Source: Candidatus Bathyarchaeota archaeon
GTDB taxonomy: Archaea > Thermoproteota > Bathyarchaeia > Bathyarchaeales > B26-1
Assembly (NCBI GenBank): GCA_018396795.1
Contig: JAGTRH010000009.1
Coordinates: forward strand, 1-15,925
Direction: 5' to 3'
Length of the DNA: 15,925 nt
Shown: in pieces, positions 2,979 to 15,925 of the stretch
Layout of the letters: the number at the start of each line of letters is the position of its first letter
Position numbering within the stretch: the first letter of the stretch is position 1
Notes under the pieces: generated by a model
What the model saw: only the letters and a program-made list of their open reading frames with translations
The model's database searches: none
Told to the model about the DNA's origin: nothing
Translations under genes and position numbers: made by a program

Positions 2979-4091
2979 TTAACCAATCAGTTCATATACT
3001 GTTGTTCTCTGAACTGGGATCCGTCCACAGTCCTTGATGAGGGCTATAATAGTTTCGGGGGGAAGATACTCTCCACTGGGGGATCCAGCTATTTTTGAAA
3101 TATTTTCCTCAATTAATGTTCCACCGAAATCATTGGCGCCCGCGTTTAAGCAGAACTGGGCAAATTTTGTGCCAAGCTTAACCCAGCTCACCTGTATGTT
3201 ATTTATTAACCCGTCAAACATTAGGCGGGAAATAGCGTAAACTTTTACGTCTTCCATGCCCGTGGCGCCTGGCCGGGAGGAAAAATTCTTGTAGAGCTCC
3301 GTTTGTTGGTGAATGAAGCTGAGTGGGACAAATTCTGTGAATCCCTTGGTTCTCTTCTGTATATTCCTTAAAATATCCATATGGACTGCCTTGTCTCTAC
3401 TGCTCTCTATATGCCCATACATCATGGTGCTTGAGGTCAATATTCCTAACCTATGGGCTTCCTCAATAATCCTAATCCATTCCTTTACTGATATTTTCGT
3501 GGGGCAAATCACTTCCCTAACTTTATCCACTAATATTTCTGCTGCTGTTCCTGGCATAGAGTTTAATCCCGCTTCCTTTAGAATCTTTAAGACTTCACGT
3601 GTGCTTAACCCTTCCTTTCTTGCAGCGTGGTGTATCTCCATTGGGCTGAAGGCGTGAATGTGTATGTCTGGGCTAACCCTTCTCACTGCCTTTATTATTT
3701 CTAGGTACAAGTCAAGGGTAGCTTCTGGGTGCAGTCCACCTTGAATGCAAACTTCGGTGGCTCTCATATTTATTGCTTCGCGGGTTTTGTTTTCAATCTC
3801 TTTTGTTGATAAAAGAAATTGGTTCGGAGAATCTTTGTCTTCCCTAAATGCGCAAAAACGGCATCTATTGACACATACATTTGTAAAGTTGATGTTTCGA
3901 TTTATAACATAAGTTACAATATCACCCACAGCTCTCCTTCTAACCTGATCCGCGACAAAGATTAGGGCTAGAAACTCTTGGCCAGTGCAATTGAACAGGA
4001 GTTCTGCTTCGTCTATCGAGGGAGGGTGTCCATCTATGGCTCTCTGAAGTATGTGGGAAACTTCCCCATTTATGTTATCTAGCAAATTCAA
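2979..4091 (-). CDS. cofH: CofH: 5-amino-6-(D-ribitylamino)uracil--L-tyrosine 4-hydroxyphenyl transferase (FO synthase subunit 2)
   Basis: This 370-residue radical-SAM enzyme transfers the 4-hydroxybenzyl group of tyrosine to 5-amino-6-ribitylaminouracil, the first half of FO synthesis for coenzyme F420. The radical-SAM cluster motif CxxxCxxC is C73-C77-C80 (CVNRCRFC) after the family-typical strand VTYVINRNINFTNV. Other CofH/MqnC-family signs are EVCIQGGLHPE, HIHAFSPMEI, LNSMPGTAAEIL, TSSTMMYGHIE, FVPLSF and the C-terminal GANDFGGTLIEENIS. Length is normal. The start is TTG at 4091, whose TG is shared with the cofG stop (TTGA overlap). It is supported by an AGGAAGTG ribosome site 6 nt upstream and by the lack of any nearby ATG. 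The overlap implies translational coupling to cofG. MqnC-like menaquinone enzymes are the main alternative, but pairing with cofG settles the call. Confidence 0.95.
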   Translation of the reverse strand: MNLLDNINGEVSHILQRAIDGHPPSIDEAELLFNCTGQEFLALIFVADQVRRRAVGDIVTYVINRNINFTNVCVNRCRFCAFREDKDSPNQFLLSTKEIENKTREAINMRATEVCIQGGLHPEATLDLYLEIIKAVRRVSPDIHIHAFSPMEIHHAARKEGLSTREVLKILKEAGLNSMPGTAAEILVDKVREVICPTKISVKEWIRIIEEAHRLGILTSSTMMYGHIESSRDKAVHMDILRNIQKRTKGFTEFVPLSFIHQQTELYKNFSSRPGATGMEDVKVYAISRLMFDGLINNIQVSWVKLGTKFAQFCLNAGANDFGGTLIEENISKIAGSPSGEYLPPETIIALIKDCGRIPVQRTTVYELIG

Positions 4092-5224
4092 TTTTCACAC
4101 TTCCTGTAACCTTTTTCGTCTGCCAATTCGTGGATGAGGGGGGCAATCTTACCAGAAACATAGCCTTTTTGTATATATTTCGGATAAATTGGTAATCTTT
4201 CTACCAGTCTGAAGTTATTTTCTCTAGTTATTTTTTCAAGCTTTTGCCTTGTTGGCCAGGGATTATTTGGATTAATTTCATCTGAAGTTACGGGTGAGAT
4301 TCCTCCCCAGTCATTCATCCCCGATGCAAGTAGCTCACGTTCACGTCCAATATTTAAATTTGGGGGAATCTGAATGCTTATTTCACCCTTAAAAACTAAT
4401 CGCGTAATAGCTGCGGTTAGCATAACATCACTCAAACTTGGCGGCCGCACCTTCTCCATAGGTGTGCCCGGTATGGGAGTGAAATTCTGAATTATTATTT
4501 CCTGTATGTGGCCATATTTCTCATGAAGCTCTTTTAAGGTGAATATGCTCTCTATCCTTTCCTCAACTGTTTCTCCTATCCCTAGAAGGATGCCGGTCGT
4601 AAATGGCACCTTTAACTCCCCCGCGTATTTTATAGTTTTAATTCTGCTCTCAGGTAACTTCCCTGGACTATGCTCATGCGGTCCGCCCGCTCCACACAGC
4701 CTCTCACTACAATTTTCCAGCATGAGGCCCATACTGGCATTCACCTGTTTCAGCTTCTCAATCTCCCTCTTCTCCAAGATGCCCGGGTTGCTGTGAGGAA
4801 GCAATCCCACATCTAGTGCCACCAGACAAAGATCGTAGAGATAATCCACCATTGAGGAGTATCCCCACTCCTTAAGTAAACTTCTAACTTCGGGATACTT
4901 TTCTTCAGGTTTCTCCCCGAAGGTGAAGAGGGCCTCAGTACACCCCGCCTTTTTTCCCCTAATTAGGAGATTTTCTACTTCTTCGGTGCTCATAATCCTT
5001 GCAAGCGGGTCCCCTGGTTCCCTTCGAAAACCACAATAACTGCAACGGTTTCTACAAATATTTGTTAGGGGAATAAAAACGTTTAGAGAAAATGTTACAA
5101 TGTCACCATAATACTTTTTCCTTATTCTATTAGCTACATCACATAAAGCCCGAAGATTTTTTTCACTTGATAGATTTAGTGCTTCCTCAAATGTTAAGTC
5201 CTCGAAATCAATATTCTTGAGCAC
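4088..5224 (-). CDS. cofG: CofG: 7,8-didemethyl-8-hydroxy-5-deazariboflavin synthase (FO synthase subunit 1)
   Basis: This 378-residue radical-SAM enzyme closes the deazaflavin ring from the CofH product to give FO, the F420 chromophore. The [4Fe-4S] motif CxxxCxxC is C57-C61-C64 (CRNRCSYC) within PLTNICRNRCSYCGF. Further family signs are EALFTFGEKPE, the LPHSNPG loop, MGLMLENCSERLC, PFTTGILLGIGE, the QNFTPIPGTPM segment and the C-terminal NDWGGISPVTSDEINP. Length is normal for archaeal CofG. The start is GTG at 5224 with AAGGAAGG about 8 nt upstream. It lies 45 nt downstream of pheA and overlaps cofH by 4 nt, so the three genes are very probably one transcript. F420 then serves as a hydride carrier for cytosolic oxidoreductases. 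The later steps (cofC, cofD, cofE) are not in this window. Confidence 0.95.
   Translation of the reverse strand: MLKNIDFEDLTFEEALNLSSEKNLRALCDVANRIRKKYYGDIVTFSLNVFIPLTNICRNRCSYCGFRREPGDPLARIMSTEEVENLLIRGKKAGCTEALFTFGEKPEEKYPEVRSLLKEWGYSSMVDYLYDLCLVALDVGLLPHSNPGILEKREIEKLKQVNASMGLMLENCSERLCGAGGPHEHSPGKLPESRIKTIKYAGELKVPFTTGILLGIGETVEERIESIFTLKELHEKYGHIQEIIIQNFTPIPGTPMEKVRPPSLSDVMLTAAITRLVFKGEISIQIPPNLNIGRERELLASGMNDWGGISPVTSDEINPNNPWPTRQKLEKITRENNFRLVERLPIYPKYIQKGYVSGKIAPLIHELADEKGYRKCEN
4098..4105 (-). promoter_or_regulatory. Ribosome binding site deciding the TTG start of cofH
   Basis: The minus strand reads AGGAAGTG, 6 nt before the TTG at 4091. It lies inside the last codons of cofG. It supports the TTG start, for which no ATG alternative exists near the N-terminus. 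Confidence 0.6.
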
Positions 5225-8793: not shown

Positions 8794-8810
8794 AAGTATT
8801 TGTGATATTT

Positions 8811-9422
8811 ATGTTGGATGCCTTTTACCAAAAATTAGATGAAGACATTAAAACTGCTAATGATTTGGAGAAGAGGGGGGATTTTAGAGCTGCGGCGAAA
8901 CTTTGGATTGAGATAGCTGAATACTGCTTAAAATTTGCTAGATCTGAATATGCTTCTGAGGAAATTAGAAAAAACCTTATTGAGAGATCCGAAGGCTACA
9001 TTGAGCATGCAAAAATGCTAAAAATTAGACCAGCACCCTTAAAGGGCTCCATAGAAAAAAGCTCCCAAGCAATAGACTATTTGGAAAAAGCTTTAGATGA
9101 TAAGATTAGGGCTGATAAACAGTGGATGGCCCTTGACCTAAACTCGTACATAATAACTATGTTTGGTGTAATTGAAAAGTTGCTCTACCATGTTTATATC
9201 TCCAAAACGGGTAATCTTCCACGTCTCGAAGAAACATTTACTTCTCTTGTTAAATGGGCCTACAGGGAAGGAATTATTAGTGATCATCCTGACAATATTG
9301 AATTCGTTAGGCTCCTTTACGAAAAATTATCCAAAAAATCGCAAAAAATAACTAGTGAACAGGCTATGGAAGCAAGAGAAATAATGGAGCGAGTGTATAA
9401 AGAGTTATGCGAAAACCTATAA
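8811..9422 (+). CDS. MIT-domain protein with degenerate HEPN-like C-terminal half
   Basis: This soluble helical protein has 203 residues from ATG 8811. Residues about 1-70 look like an MIT domain, the three-helix bundle with which Vps4/CdvC binds ESCRT-III tails: LDEDIKTANDLEKRGDFR, AAKLWIEIAEYCLKFA and SEGYIEHAKMLK follow the helix-A/B/C pattern, including the GDFxxAxxLW turn. Residues about 80-203 resemble the HEPN/DUF4145 fold: a helix with FGVIEKLLYHVYI, then LVKWAYREGII, then KITSEQAMEAREIMERVYKEL. The RX4-6H RNase motif expected before ITSEQA is absent. No AAA ATPase is attached. GTG at 8802 is an alternative start, but GTGAT at 8802-8806 matches the anti-Shine-Dalgarno and sits 4 nt before ATG 8811, so I read it as the ribosome site. 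It is probably in one operon with the sugar-nucleotide synthase. An adaptor role is inference. Confidence 0.6.
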   Translation: MLDAFYQKLDEDIKTANDLEKRGDFRAAAKLWIEIAEYCLKFARSEYASEEIRKNLIERSEGYIEHAKMLKIRPAPLKGSIEKSSQAIDYLEKALDDKIRADKQWMALDLNSYIITMFGVIEKLLYHVYISKTGNLPRLEETFTSLVKWAYREGIISDHPDNIEFVRLLYEKLSKKSQKITSEQAMEAREIMERVYKELCENL

Positions 9423-9436: not shown

Positions 9437-10138
9437 CTACTTCTTTTTCCAAACCTTCTTTATTTCCTCTTCAGAGGCTAGTCTGAAGGTTTGAGTCTCT
9501 GCGTCAATGACGCCTAAATCTATGTCTTCAGGCTGAAGGTCTTCAGAAACTTCCCTCAAGGTGTCTACCGCCAGTTTTAACATTTCGCTTATCGACATAT
9601 CCTCTTTATACCTTGCTTTCAGAATTTCCAAAGCCTTAGGTTCATTAGCCCCAACCGCTGCAGCTTTGCTTTTGGTCAAGGCTCCCGAAGTGTCTATGAG
9701 AACTATTTCCGGTCCCCCTCTGCTTATTCCTCCAAAAAGTAAGGCACATCCAAATGGGCGTGTTCCTCCTAACTGTGTAAAGCGCTGCATAAGACGCCCT
9801 AGCCTTTGGGCAAGTGTACTAACATCTATTTTTTCATCGTATGTTACTCTATACGATTGAGCTATAATTCTCGCTCTGTCAAGTAGAAGTCTTGAATCCG
9901 ACATGTATCCGGCACTCGTGGCGCCTATGTGGTCGTCGATTTTCAAAACTTTTTCGTGGGATTCAAGCAGTTTGCTATGTGTTTTCGCCACCCCTGCTAA
10001 TACCACGCCCTTAGATGTTTTTATTCCAACAGCCGGCGCTCCTTTTTTAACTGCTTCGCTGGAATACTCCACTTGAATAATACGCCCTTCAGGAGAATAC
10101 ATGGTGCTACTTTTATCATAATCCATCTCGTCGGACAT
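9437..10138 (-). CDS. psmA: 20S proteasome alpha subunit
   Basis: This 233-residue subunit builds the outer rings of the archaeal 20S core, forms the gate, and docks regulatory ATPases (PAN, Cdc48). The signature N-terminal stretch is present: YSPEGRIIQVEYSSEAVKKG (14-33), the gate helix H0 region, then AVGIKTSKGVVLAG. K63 in HEKVLKID matches the pocket lysine that receives HbYX tails. GATSAGYMSDSR, LAQRLGRLMQRFTQ, RPFG (127-130) and YKEDMSISEML are standard. As expected for alpha subunits there is no catalytic N-terminal Thr. Length is typical. The ATG has GAGGAG 7 nt upstream. A TATA-like TATAAATA lies far upstream (10255-10248 on the minus strand), and a weaker TTATAGG lies closer. It is not flanked by the exosome/SBDS genes often found next to psmA; it converges on the MIT gene. 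Confident of identity. Confidence 0.97.
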   Translation of the reverse strand: MSDEMDYDKSSTMYSPEGRIIQVEYSSEAVKKGAPAVGIKTSKGVVLAGVAKTHSKLLESHEKVLKIDDHIGATSAGYMSDSRLLLDRARIIAQSYRVTYDEKIDVSTLAQRLGRLMQRFTQLGGTRPFGCALLFGGISRGGPEIVLIDTSGALTKSKAAAVGANEPKALEILKARYKEDMSISEMLKLAVDTLREVSEDLQPEDIDLGVIDAETQTFRLASEEEIKKVWKKK

Positions 10139-11187: not shown

Positions 11188-11590
11188 AATAATTCTCTCC
11201 TAAAACCACATACTGCAATTAATCCTTTCTGCTTATCTGATGTGTACTTACATAAGGGTCATGGGGATAGTTGAATTTTGCACATTTCAGGTATATTTAT
11301 TGGGTGTTGTAGGGTTTCGAGTGTTCGTCGCTTCCAAAATGTTAAGTGCGGTGTATTTTTCGTCAATAATATGTGTTGAGTTGTGGTGTAATGCCCTTTT
11401 TAATATAGTTAACTGTTTTATCAATTTTTAGGTGAAATTAAGGTGGTTCTGGGATTTTATTAAACTTCTTTTTTAAGAATTAGGGTAATACTTCGGTAAC
11501 GTCTGGCTATAGTTTCTCACTCTACAGGGATAATAGTCAATATAATAAGTGACTTTCACTAGGTTTTTTAAAGGCGGTGGGTTCGATTTG
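11188..11590. other. Long intergenic region between divergent genes; no gene supported
   Basis: About 400 nt (361 if the GTG at 11549 starts the next gene). It is T-rich on the plus strand, with scattered stops. A 63-codon plus-strand ORF at 11240-11431 is hydrophobic only because of T-rich codons; it lacks a ribosome site and I do not accept it. Small structures seen: AGTTAACT at 11407-11414, a TTCTT-TTTT-AAGAA hairpin/palindrome at 11466-11479, and TTTTTTAAA at 11564-11572, which could be the box A of a leaderless transcript starting at ATG 11591. An unannotated RNA cannot be excluded. Confidence 0.4.
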
Positions 11591-13081
11591 ATGTCTCTGG
11601 ATAGATTCAAGTGTACTTCTTGTAATGAGGCTGAGGCGGCTTACTACTGTGAGGAGTGCAAATCAGCTTTCTGTCTGGGATGCGCCCAGGAGAGAAGGGA
11701 GGCGTTTTTTGTCTGCGGTTCATGCGGCTTCAAGGAAACAGACTTTGAGGGGGATAAGAAAAGCCCCTCAAGATGTCCAAATTGTGGTTCAACTGATTTG
11801 AGATCTGGGATTAGAAAATGGAAACTGTGTCCTAACTGTCGCTCTGGTATGGTTATAAGCGTTCAGGATAAGAGGGTGGAGCTTAAAAAAACCTTTATTG
11901 ATAATGTGAACAGCATTCTATATGGCTATGAATTGTTGAAAGATTTTTCGAGGAGACTTAAAGAAACTAGAAAGAGGCTAATTTTTCTCAGACATAGAAG
12001 GTATTTCCACTATCCAAAAATGGAGGAAACTTTAATCTCCCTATTCCAAGAAATTATTTCCTTAAAAAAGAAGGTGGAGGCGCGGGCTCAACAGGTCTTA
12101 AATGTGATTCAAGTGCAACTCGTAGATTTTTCTTATCCCGATAATTGGAGCCCACACGATTTTCCACAGATTCAAACAGCAGTGGAGAGGATAAAATCCG
12201 ATGTTAAAGACTACAAAGATTATATCAAGGGCCTTATGGAATTGCCCGAAAAAAATCTTGAGACAGTAACTTCCCTAATAAAATTGCTGAGTTTTCATTG
12301 GAAGCTCTTTGAGGAACATAGAGAAAAAATTGATTTAGAAATTGGTGAAAAACCTGTAGCAGCCATTCAGAGGGTAAAATATGTGGGAAGCTCTTTTCTA
12401 AGTTTAGAAAAATGTAGTGGAATACTTTTGTTAACAGATAAAAGGATAATTTTTATCAGAGAAAAAGGAATTCTAAACAAGTCGTACCAGAAACATTTTG
12501 AACTTCCCCTAAAAGCTCTCCAACTCGTAGTTGAAGGGTCAATATGGAAGAAACTCTCTTTCGAAGGTTCCCAAGGAGATGTGCGATTCTCCGCATCCAA
12601 AAATACCCTAAAAGCAATTGAAAGATACGTAGAATTGGCGAAAAACTTTGATAAAAGCTCCATAAAGGATAAAACCCAAACTGACAAACTGGAAAAACTG
12701 GAAATAACACTAGACGACCTGAAAACCGAGATGCACAAAAAAATTATGAGCGTTTTCACGCCCAAAATTAAGGAGCCCAGTCGTGGATTCGAACCACAGC
12801 CACCTGTTCCCACTGTTATCCCCAGAGGTGTTCAAAAACCCACACCCCAAGTGTCCACTTATAATCGAGTACAATTTCAAAATATGGAAGGATCAAAAAG
12901 AGGGGATTTACTAGATTGGGAGCGAAAGAAATTCTCCCTTGAACAGCTTCTCAAAAAGATTGAAGAACTTTGGCGGCGTGGAGACATTTCTGTAGAGGAG
13001 TACCTGAAAAGAATGAAGAATCTTTATGAGGAACTCTACGTCTTGAACCAAAAGTTAAAGGAAATTGAAGTTCAAGCCTAA
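11591..13081 (+). CDS. Zinc-finger (B-box-like) protein with GRAM/PH-like domain and SHOCT-like C-terminus
   Basis: The protein has 496 residues from ATG 11591. The N-terminal 31 residues form a B-box/treble-clef-like zinc finger: C8xxC11, C20xxC23, C28xxC31 (KCTSC, YYCEECKSAFCLGC). A zinc ribbon follows (C42xxC45, C62xxC65), then C80xxC83. Residues about 95-245 are helical and coiled. Residues about 255-352 look like a GRAM/bacterial PH-type lipid- or protein-binding domain: GILLLTDKRIIFIREKG, then the LPLKALQLVVEG and KKLSFEG strands and a closing helix. A Pro-rich linker (about 395-425) leads to a helical hairpin, EELWRRGDISVEEYLKRMK, resembling SHOCT. GTG at 11549 gives a 510-residue version, but it lacks a ribosome site. 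The conserved part begins right after the ATG, and a TATA-like TTTTTTAAA lies about 23 nt before it. The gene converges with the ESCRT-III gene, 81 nt apart. Function unknown; membrane association is inference. Confidence 0.7.
   Translation: MSLDRFKCTSCNEAEAAYYCEECKSAFCLGCAQERREAFFVCGSCGFKETDFEGDKKSPSRCPNCGSTDLRSGIRKWKLCPNCRSGMVISVQDKRVELKKTFIDNVNSILYGYELLKDFSRRLKETRKRLIFLRHRRYFHYPKMEETLISLFQEIISLKKKVEARAQQVLNVIQVQLVDFSYPDNWSPHDFPQIQTAVERIKSDVKDYKDYIKGLMELPEKNLETVTSLIKLLSFHWKLFEEHREKIDLEIGEKPVAAIQRVKYVGSSFLSLEKCSGILLLTDKRIIFIREKGILNKSYQKHFELPLKALQLVVEGSIWKKLSFEGSQGDVRFSASKNTLKAIERYVELAKNFDKSSIKDKTQTDKLEKLEITLDDLKTEMHKKIMSVFTPKIKEPSRGFEPQPPVPTVIPRGVQKPTPQVSTYNRVQFQNMEGSKRGDLLDWERKKFSLEQLLKKIEELWRRGDISVEEYLKRMKNLYEELYVLNQKLKEIEVQA
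12770..12799 (-). other. tRNA T-arm-like segment inside the zinc-finger/GRAM gene
   Basis: On the minus strand TGTGG-TTCGAAT-CCACG forms a 5-bp T-stem with a canonical T-loop (12798-12782), followed by ACTGGGC, as in the 3' end of a tRNA. There is no matching 5' acceptor strand (GCCCAGT) or D/anticodon arm upstream, so this is not a tRNA gene. It falls in the Pro-rich linker. It may be chance or a relic of a tRNA 3' fragment. Confidence 0.25.
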
Positions 13082-13162: not shown

Positions 13163-13798
13163 CTACTCCTTTTCTTTAGGCTTCTTTGAACTTTCCAACT
13201 CCCTCTTCAGGTCTTCTAGCTCAGACGCCAGGGAAGATTTTTCTGTTATTATGTCCCCTTGTGGTACTTTAGGTTCCTCTATTCCCTCTAATGCTATTTC
13301 CGCCTCTAGACGGTTTAACTCACTTTCAATGTCTCCTGCTTCCTCAACGCCCATTTCGGAAGGGGTTGCCAGAATATCTGAGCTTCTGGAAATCTCGTGC
13401 ATAGCTTCCTCTTGCTTTATCATCATTTCGAGTATCTGTTCTGAGTTGACGAGTTTTCGGGCGTTTTCAAGCTCTGCTCCTGCAAGTTCAAATGCTTCTT
13501 TGAGTTCTGAGACGTCATGGGCTTCTTCTATGGCGATGAGTCTAGTTTCAAGGTTCTCAATAAATGCGGTGTACTTACCTAGAAAATTCTGGTATCTTCT
13601 GAATTTTCTGAGGGCGAATGTTGCCATACCCTTGTTACCCATTTTTAAGTATTGTTTAGCCTTGTTTCTCTCCTCAATTGCCTTTCTCTCGTAGTTCCGT
13701 GAACGCAGAGTTAGCCTATTTATACTAGTTCTCAACTGTGCGACTATTTCGTCCTTGTTTTTCGGCCTTTTTCCAAAGAGTATATCTTTAATACTCAT
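13163..13798 (-). CDS. ESCRT-III (Snf7-family) protein, Vps20/CHMP6-like
   Basis: This 211-residue protein matches the Snf7 core. After a short basic N-terminus (FGKRPKNKDEI), helix 1 reads IVAQLRTSINRLTLRSRNYE, and the hairpin continues with KAIEERNKAKQYLKMGNKGM and ATFALRKFRRYQNFLGKY, then ENLETRLIAIEEAHD. The order and the 'AK..L..G.K..A...L+K.+RYQ..L' pattern are close to remembered eukaryotic CHMP6/Vps20. Further helices (VSELKEAFELAGAEL, NSEQILEMMIKQEEAMHEI) and an acidic tail follow. SLASELEDLKREL (189-201) resembles an MIT-interacting motif (MIM1), with Glu in place of the usual Arg. ESCRT-III proteins polymerise on membranes and cut necks in division and budding; in archaea these are CdvB-type. 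The ATG has GAGGAG 6 nt upstream, and an AT-rich box lies near 13836-13848. It is the last of three same-strand genes, 96 nt after the helical protein. Confidence 0.8.
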   Translation of the reverse strand: MSIKDILFGKRPKNKDEIVAQLRTSINRLTLRSRNYERKAIEERNKAKQYLKMGNKGMATFALRKFRRYQNFLGKYTAFIENLETRLIAIEEAHDVSELKEAFELAGAELENARKLVNSEQILEMMIKQEEAMHEISRSSDILATPSEMGVEEAGDIESELNRLEAEIALEGIEEPKVPQGDIITEKSSLASELEDLKRELESSKKPKEKE

Positions 13799-14948: not shown

Positions 14949-15925
14949 TCATTCGATGAGTGACCTGCGCAGTTGCTCGATTTTTTCGAAAGTTTTCCTC
15001 TTTAAGAAAACATATTCATCCTCAGTCATCCTACCTAACTCAAAGTACTCATGTAGGCTCCTCAAATATTTCTGGAATTTCTCTATCTGCCTGAGAATCT
15101 CTTCCTGCCTTTTCTCCTTATCAGATACCTGTTCTTTCCCCTCTTCCTCTATTGGTTGTACACTTACTGGTTTACTAATTTCCGGTTCGCTTACTGGTTT
15201 ACTAATTTCTGGTTTAACGCCCTCTTCGGCGCTTATTCTGGGTATTGGTGGTGGGCTGGGTAATTCTGGAAGTTCCTCCTCTGCCATGGTTTCTCTCGTT
15301 AAGGGTTTTGGTCTTGGTGTGCGGGGAGCCGCCTTTAAGCCTTTAACTATCTCTTTAATTGTTGTTACCATGCCTGCTGCTTCATTTTTAAGCGCCGAAG
15401 TGGATGAAACGCCAATTACCGTGTTTTCCTCTGTTTCAACTATCCCTACGGCTAATCTTGACTTCTCCTTGGAGGCTAAAACTACAGGTACACTTTTTGT
15501 CGCTTCTATCTCTATTTGCCAACCTTCCTCCTTCAATTTTGTGTAGATTTCACGGATGGCTTCTCTGCTGTGCGCCTGTGTCACTATTGGTTCTGCTACT
15601 CCCTCCATTTTGGGAGCAGGATATAAATGATCATAAAATCGGTATTCCAAGACTCGTTTAAGGTAGTCGGAGGCCAAGTCCGTTGGTAAGCTGAGTATAG
15701 GTGGGGCTGGTATTGATATGTCTGGGGCCACTTCCACCATTTCTTCTTCTGTAACTTCTTCCAAAGCTTCTAAAGCCTCGGCCTCTGCTTCGGGTGTGCC
15801 TCCTGTTTCCTCAACAGTTTTCTCAATTTCTGGAGTGGCAACCTGTTTTGGAGCAATGGCTGTGAGTTCCTCAATTATCTTGGGAAGGGCTTCGCGGCCA
15901 GAATGCTGACTCAGCCTGGGTCTTA
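14949..15925 (-). CDS. Acidic/Pro-rich protein with small alpha-beta domain and SHOCT-like C-terminus (cut by right edge)
   Basis: About 325 codons are visible. The frame stays open to the window edge with no ATG upstream, so the TTG at 15764 is not a credible start and the gene's 5' end lies outside. The visible N-terminal part is acidic and low in complexity (EAEAEALEALEEVTEEEM). A Pro-rich stretch follows (ISIPAPPILSLP), then a compact alpha-beta domain of about 110 residues: DYLKRVLEYRFYDHLYP, REIYTKLKEEGWQIEIEA, then strands PVVLASKEKSRLAVGIV and NTVIGVSSTSA, and helix TTIKEIVKGLK. A second Pro-rich linker contains a 9-residue tandem repeat (EISKPVSEP). The last 55 residues form a helical hairpin, YFELGRMTEDEYVFLKRK, resembling SHOCT and the ends of two other proteins here. 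I do not recognise the alpha-beta domain. It sits 16 nt before the helical-protein gene, in the ESCRT-III cluster. Confidence 0.65.
   Translation of the reverse strand, partial: RPRLSQHSGREALPKIIEELTAIAPKQVATPEIEKTVEETGGTPEAEAEALEALEEVTEEEMVEVAPDISIPAPPILSLPTDLASDYLKRVLEYRFYDHLYPAPKMEGVAEPIVTQAHSREAIREIYTKLKEEGWQIEIEATKSVPVVLASKEKSRLAVGIVETEENTVIGVSSTSALKNEAAGMVTTIKEIVKGLKAAPRTPRPKPLTRETMAEEELPELPSPPPIPRISAEEGVKPEISKPVSEPEISKPVSVQPIEEEGKEQVSDKEKRQEEILRQIEKFQKYLRSLHEYFELGRMTEDEYVFLKRKTFEKIEQLRRSLIE
15163..15216 (-). repeat. 27-bp in-frame tandem duplication
   Basis: Two copies of a 27-nt unit starting at 15163 and 15190 (CTTACTGGTTTACTAATTTC on the plus strand) are nearly identical over about 25 nt. 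They encode EISKPVS twice in the Pro/Glu-rich linker of the right-edge protein. It looks like a recent slippage duplication in a tolerant linker. Confidence 0.7.

Follow-up and report, generated by a model that had tools for sequence, protein, structure and literature searches.

A predicted B-type ESCRT-III protein encoded in a row with a HerA-family ATPase in Asgard archaea: a candidate link between a DNA motor and membrane scission

HerA-family proteins are known above all as ring ATPases that move DNA, and HerA and FtsK/SpoIIIE are named as one superfamily. Whether ESCRT in Asgard archaea functions in division or in trafficking is still debated, and a gene row that links a DNA motor to membrane scission is of interest in this setting. 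Passages of two studies group the Asgard B protein with CHMP4-7, and its A counterpart with CHMP1-3 and IST1 (PMC11804906, PMC7240154), the published trees described in the former joining the B protein to CHMP4-7 as a whole (PMC11804906). The Heimdall and Loki relatives are described there, in the sections cited, as binding membrane, forming polymers and recruiting ESCRT-IIIA (PMC11804906). Loki ESCRT-IIIB is also reported to bind both ssDNA and dsDNA, and ssDNA gave five-fold more tube formation by the two Loki ESCRT-III proteins whereas dsDNA gave no enhancement, the physiological role of the DNA being left undecided by the authors in the passages concerned (PMC11791191). The protein described here, encoded in a stretch of 15,925 nucleotides (the window), belongs to the same family as the Asgard ESCRT-IIIB proteins of 9ftl and 9fn1 and CHMP4-7, with the same B type and a similar length, core and C-terminal motif region, but it comes from another lineage and its gene shares a row with those of HerA and a 345-residue protein (P345).

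The ESCRT-IIIB ORF (13163..13798, minus strand) has an ATG start and encodes 211 amino acids, and frame 1 of the plus strand across the same interval is rich in stops. A sequence-only reading had taken this ORF for an archaeal ESCRT-III protein from its helical core, and the ORF and all three of the helix strings that it quoted exist as claimed, though on the minus strand: AKQYLKMGNKGM (residues 47-58), ALRKFRRYQNFLGKY (residues 62-76) and ENLETRLIAIEEAHD (residues 81-95). The family call is borne out by the Pfam Snf7 model (PF03357), which matches residues 19-180 far above chance (E = 6e-18; 65.5 bits, the cut-off being 27.3). Homologues at E <= 0.001 number 12 including the window's own, with identities of 83-100%, and the best solved-structure match is the ESCRT-IIIB of Heimdallarchaeota AB_125 (PDB 9ftl, 5.9e-13), with further matches to 9fn1, a Vps20/32/60-like ESCRT-III (3.2e-12), and to SNF7 (1.1e-07). 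Near the C-terminus lies EEPKVPQGD, a candidate MIM2 motif that might bind the Vps4 MIT domain; its proline (176) is invariant in 10/10 aligned B proteins.

The same reading had set the protein nearer to the Vps20/32 type than to CdvB with its winged-helix tail, and profile searches agree. A profile built from ten Asgard B proteins and an Asgard A profile were each run against all PDB sequences; the former reaches SNF7 at 1.4e-24, the A-type CHMP1B at 1.2e-08 and CHMP4B, whose chain is just 79 residues long, at 4.6e-05, with no CdvB among the 19 sequences matched at E <= 0.01. The A profile, by comparison, finds CHMP1B (5.5e-26), CHMP2A (2.4e-22) and CdvB 9s9j (1.3e-11), and SNF7 merely at 0.0047. 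TACK CdvB thus shares the superfamily, but it is the Asgard A profile and not the B profile that reaches it, and a Pfam scan of the 211 residues returned no winged-helix match, in line with the sequence-only reading. In a maximum-likelihood tree of 34 rows, A (16) and B (18) separate at 100/100 and the window protein falls on the B side, beside L007; SNF7, on a long branch, is the sole eukaryotic row on that side and the tree holds no CdvB or Vps20 rows, so it backs the B type and cannot separate Vps20 from Snf7. The protein therefore shares the B-side grouping of the eukaryotic Snf7/CHMP4 and Vps20/32/60 class and is placed to B type, not to CHMP6, in agreement with the CHMP4-7 grouping of Asgard B in the published passages (PMC11804906, PMC7240154). 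We regard it as almost certainly a B-type (Vps20/32/60, CHMP4-7) ESCRT-III protein by sequence and, by itself, as an ordinary one, a fresh member of a well-described family.

The closest named contigs are those of Candidatus Jordarchaeia QZM_A3 and RPF2, whose ESCRT-IIIB proteins are 100% and 99% identical to that of the window; the Freyarchaeota SQRJ_82 protein is 88% identical, and the window DNA is 95% identical to QZM_A3 across 4.5 kb. Jordarchaeia are counted among the Asgard clades in the relevant passage of PMC10307638, and the host, to judge by these relatives, is an Asgard archaeon of Candidatus Jordarchaeia type. The suggestion that a non-Asgard host might widen the range of Vps20/32-like ESCRT-III is refuted by the named relatives, Candidatus Jordarchaeia and Freyarchaeota, since ESCRT-IIIB is expected in Asgard hosts. 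Some labels among the relatives are at odds with sequence: L006 is labelled Sigynarchaeota yet its ESCRT-IIIB and that of the window share 89% identity, a contig of G215 (f29) that is apparently the same one carries a HerA 69% identical to that of G001, and a protein labelled Lokiarchaeia (P0020) is Jord/Frey-like in look. These labels may reflect a mix-up in binning or naming and, if L006/G215 is such a case, f29 is perhaps no separate group.

Within the window, two genes precede ESCRT-IIIB on its strand: P345 (13895..14932, minus strand), which is predicted to be all-helical and stands between HerA and ESCRT-IIIB, and then an open-ended HerA-family ORF (14949..15923, minus strand) that runs past the window end and is represented by its C-terminal 324 residues. 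The spacing is close: P345 starts 16 bases after the HerA stop, and ESCRT-IIIB follows P345 after 96 bases. In f1 relatives, ESCRT-IIIA lies further upstream of a full-length HerA of 1013-1021 aa, and the co-directional row reads ESCRT-IIIA, HerA-family ATPase, P345 and, last, ESCRT-IIIB. Whole or in part, this row recurs in L004, L006, L007 and L008 and also in f5, f24, f25 and f11, its conserved parts thus spanning several Asgard families. The ESCRT-IIIA and ESCRT-IIIB of G011 share only 26% and 28% identity with their window-lineage counterparts, so the order is either old or was regained, and a recent shared block is not its cause in that genome. In G005 the ESCRT-IIIB gene (L067, 5888-6756, minus strand) is split over two frames, through an assembly error or as a broken gene.

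The full HerA of the f1 orthologue in L008 matches PF01935 (2e-13, 51.4 bits against a cut-off of 23.2) and PF05872 (4.8e-06, 25.9 bits against 22), and a profile of the long HerA proteins matches solved HerA-type ATPases, several of them named helicases, at 1.4e-11. Walker A reads GHRGSGKS or GQRGSGKS in 10/10 of the long proteins compared, and the Walker B (DEA) pattern is present in 9/10, G011 being the exception; by its DUF87/HerA domain and Walker A/B motifs, the gene cut by the window end is assigned to the HerA family. The ATPase core with both motifs is common to solved HerA-type ATPases (4d2i, 8xau, 9x1l). Unlike classical HerA, however, the row HerA has about 230 extra N-terminal residues, which are missing from a 680-aa relative in f3 (in G023 and G215 the frames start at the contig end and this region is unseen or partly unseen), and it also has a C-terminal region and ESCRT-III neighbours. 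That it is nonetheless a classical DNA-repair HerA, standing here by coincidence, appears extremely improbable: the ATPase family is shared, but no match to the nuclease NurA was found among the row neighbours scanned, the extra N-terminal region sets the protein apart, and G001 has a second HerA-like gene on contig C169. Protein searches with HerA, for the 120 of 176 matches listed, gave Asgard labels wherever an organism was named for matches that span 84% or more of the query, and narrower matches, at 43-60% coverage, in Methanofastidiosa, Diapherotrites and Bathyarchaeota. The HerA proteins of f1 and f5 end in a helical hairpin; as a candidate steadiness box it gave no Vps23_core match, and hhalign returned a probability of 1.6 against the hairpin of the zinc-ribbon/PH-like neighbour. 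HerA was also considered as the Vps4 disassembly ATPase and rejected in that role, as it carries PF01935/PF05872 and matches neither MIT nor Vps4_C at E <= 0.5.

A HerA search of 227 Asgard genomes at E <= 1e-100 matched 18 and left 209 without a match, so HerA is not needed for Asgard ESCRT generally. Long-type HerA occurs in 17/227 genomes, and in 13 of these 17, from seven family-level groups, it lies next to ESCRT-III or with P345 alone between (G001, G031, G015 and G052 of f1; G215 of f29; G005 and G023 of f5; G107 of f24; G146 of f25; G011 of f11; G166, G168 and G172 of f23). Owing to contig ends, G015 is counted through ESCRT-IIIA alone and G215 and G023 through ESCRT-IIIB alone; the three f23 genomes are also counted through ESCRT-IIIB alone, no ESCRT-IIIA having been found in the stretches examined around f23 HerA. 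The remainder comprises one interrupted case, G167 (f23), where an unrelated opposite-strand gene separates P345 from an ESCRT-IIIB 1.7 kb past it and which was therefore left out of the 13; two undecided cases, G082, where the contig ends, and G171, where P345 is followed by other ORFs and the contig stops about 2 kb on; and one negative, G170, with HerA and P345 but no ESCRT-III match in about 6 kb downstream. Outside these counts, a HerA fragment lies beside ESCRT-IIIB in G039 (f5), which stands outside the 13/17, and G175 (f28), outside the 17, has a core-only HerA with no ESCRT-III match within 12 kb. The short core-only HerA of f3 is distant from the listed Snf7 match on the same contig (386 kb in G050, 1.1 Mb in G129), these distances being to the Snf7 matches listed, as there may be another copy elsewhere. 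Compared with named proteins by HerA identity, f24 and f25 come near Helarchaeota-labelled and f23 near Heimdallarchaeota-labelled proteins, which are single-protein labels and not placements.

It could be argued that HerA and P345 are unrelated genes which slow change in gene order has left beside an ordinary ESCRT-IIIB. ESCRT-III is common without HerA (Snf7 is found in 136/148 Asgard genomes, HerA at 1e-100 in 18/227) and numerous other window genes are metabolic or housekeeping. Yet among the ORFs listed the neighbours outside the row vary among f1/f5, f24/f25 and f23 while HerA keeps with ESCRT-III, and ESCRT-III identity drops to 26-28% across the set, and we consider such passive retention unlikely. 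A functional coupling of HerA with ESCRT-III is, in our view, likely, although what gene order shows is association and not contact.

P345 alone gave no Pfam or NCBIfam match at curated cut-offs and no structure match of meaningful level. Its AlphaFold2 model (26 sequences) is all-helical, with 13 helices, a mean pLDDT of 84.8 and a pTM of 0.82, and in this model the helices seem to fall into three repeats of four. In a small local set of HerA loci, P345 adjoins HerA in 4/4 of f1, 1/1 of f29 and 7/7 of f23, the f23 matches having E-values, for that small set, of 5e-09 to 1e-22. Genome-wide, a P345 profile matched 15/227 genomes, of which three (f2) match about 70 residues only, maybe by chance, and it overlooked 4/7 of the f23 genomes that were positive in the small local scan; a single-sequence search matched 9/148 genomes, three of them at E 0.0037-0.0086 and probably by chance. 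In G025 (L074) and G040 (L073), P345 (identity 28-29%) stands between ESCRT-IIIA and ESCRT-IIIB without HerA, which suggests that P345 is linked to ESCRT in its own right. A P345 relative in G214 (L115, contig C30) has neither a HerA nor an ESCRT-III match across 16 kb.

Vps4_C matches occur in 139/148 genomes. They lie on contigs other than the row's in G001, G031, G015 and G052, the G001 protein having an MIT-like start, and among the nine non-f23 row genomes searched (G215 not included) Vps4_C was found in frames of about 390-400 aa in seven and in neither G011 nor G023. HerA is therefore no simple stand-in for Vps4, G011 (no Vps4_C match) aside. Over cut-off, the 11 genomes examined gave EAP30 (Vps22-type) in 10, Vps28 in 10 and ubiquitin in 11, and a single contig of G107 carries ESCRT-IIIA, HerA, ESCRT-IIIB, a Vps4_C match, EAP30, Vps28 and ubiquitin. 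With Vps4-type, ESCRT-I/II and ubiquitin genes present in most genomes checked, HerA resembles an addition to a full ESCRT system. Such an addition might work beside Vps4 as a second remodelling ATPase or unfoldase, with the ESCRT-III polymer and not DNA as its substrate: the HerA gene lies between the genes of both polymer subunits, the extra N-terminal region could serve for docking, as could the C-terminal hairpin of the f1 and f5 proteins, and G011, which is 92% complete, carries the row with no Vps4_C match. The closest solved relatives are nevertheless HerA-type ATPases, several of them named helicases, and Vps4_C is present in most row genomes searched, so that we hold this role to be decidedly unlikely.

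The ESCRT-I/II and ubiquitin genes fit sorting as well as they fit division. A row for DNA export or packaging, for example of DNA into ESCRT-made vesicles, would draw on these genes, present in most genomes checked, and on a HerA-type ATPase, and Loki ESCRT-III is described in part of PMC11791191 as binding and deforming vesicles; no transfer, pilus or packaging family was found, however, among the main window ORFs scanned, and a function in export in place of division seems highly unlikely.

Given that HerA-family proteins are best known as DNA motors and that Loki ESCRT-IIIB is reported to bind DNA, both are most simply accommodated by a DNA pump at the ESCRT-III neck. On sequence grounds the window ESCRT-IIIB very likely behaves like its Heimdall and Loki relatives; by homology, its N-terminal helix would bind membrane, it would polymerise via the alpha1-alpha2 hairpin and recruit an A-type protomer, and Vps4 would disassemble the polymer. 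HerA would be a ring-shaped DNA pump held at this neck, either directly or via P345, which, by analogy with FtsK in bacterial division, would clear or segregate DNA ahead of membrane cutting. The row HerA is thus proposed to act at a closing neck as FtsK/SpoIIIE does, but no membrane anchor was identified in it, and it is not claimed as an FtsK member. We have good confidence in the explanation as a whole, that is, in the identity of ESCRT-IIIB together with a HerA that works with the ESCRT-III polymer, whereas the narrower proposal that HerA clears DNA at the neck is a possibility that we hold tentatively. More doubtful still is the idea of a composite division machine, used by several Asgard lineages, in which a dedicated HerA pump is joined through a P345 adaptor to an ESCRT-III scission polymer. 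If true, it would give archaea an equivalent of the FtsK-FtsZ link and might represent an early form of the eukaryotic ESCRT-chromatin connection. The row offers a concrete candidate for a link between DNA and scission, in Jordarchaeia/Freyarchaeota among others, that is open to tests with purified proteins.

Our literature search, with figures, supplements, most subscription papers and preprints outside its scope, found no paper joining HerA, ESCRT(-III) and Asgard, and among papers matching both terms no title on a HerA-ESCRT-III link; a search on DNA translocase, ESCRT-III, archaea and chromosome segregation gave a lone match, which concerns a planctomycete. The term HerA is absent from the text searched of PMC10936438, PMC9192718, PMC8970359, PMC11791191, PMC7240154, PMC12993045, PMC10307638 and PMC11291895. 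Given this scope, an earlier description of the HerA-ESCRT-III row may exist.

Convergent with the row lies a gene on the plus strand (11549..13081, its start more likely at about 11591) for a zinc-ribbon, PH-like and coiled-coil protein with a C-terminal hairpin, for which the matches to PF14470 (0.0048), zinc ribbons and Vps23_core (0.071) are all under cut-off. By domain order (zinc ribbons, PH-like part, coiled coil, hairpin) and these sub-threshold matches, it resembles the ESCRT-I-like Znr_PH_CC_SB, a described Asgard family in the passage cited (PMC10936438). Its relatives adjoin ESCRT-IIIB in f1, f5 and f13 and lie near the row in L006. The gene for a proteasome alpha subunit (9437..10138, minus strand; PF00227, 5.5e-46) stays near the zinc-ribbon/PH gene and the ESCRT-III row in f1, f5 and L006 (L067, L006, L071, L008), and the proteasome reportedly controls ESCRT-III-mediated division in one archaeon. 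A 206-aa protein (8802-9422, plus strand) that is conserved in f1 relatives matches MIT weakly (2e-4, below cut-off), ends in a HEPN-like tail (0.12) and is possibly a further ESCRT-linked factor. The genes cofH and cofG (NCBIfam), which serve the F420 precursor FO, lie side by side at 2979-5224 on the minus strand. At 911-2968 on the plus strand lies a 685-aa protein that has long coiled coils and a longin match of FUZ/MON1/HPS1 type (PF19036 at 5.3e-06, above cut-off); a similar-looking segment (weak match, 1.8e-4 in L078) opens a long divergent gene beside HerA in f23, and a related C-terminal part sits near the f13 ESCRT row (loci L078, L092, L093, L072).
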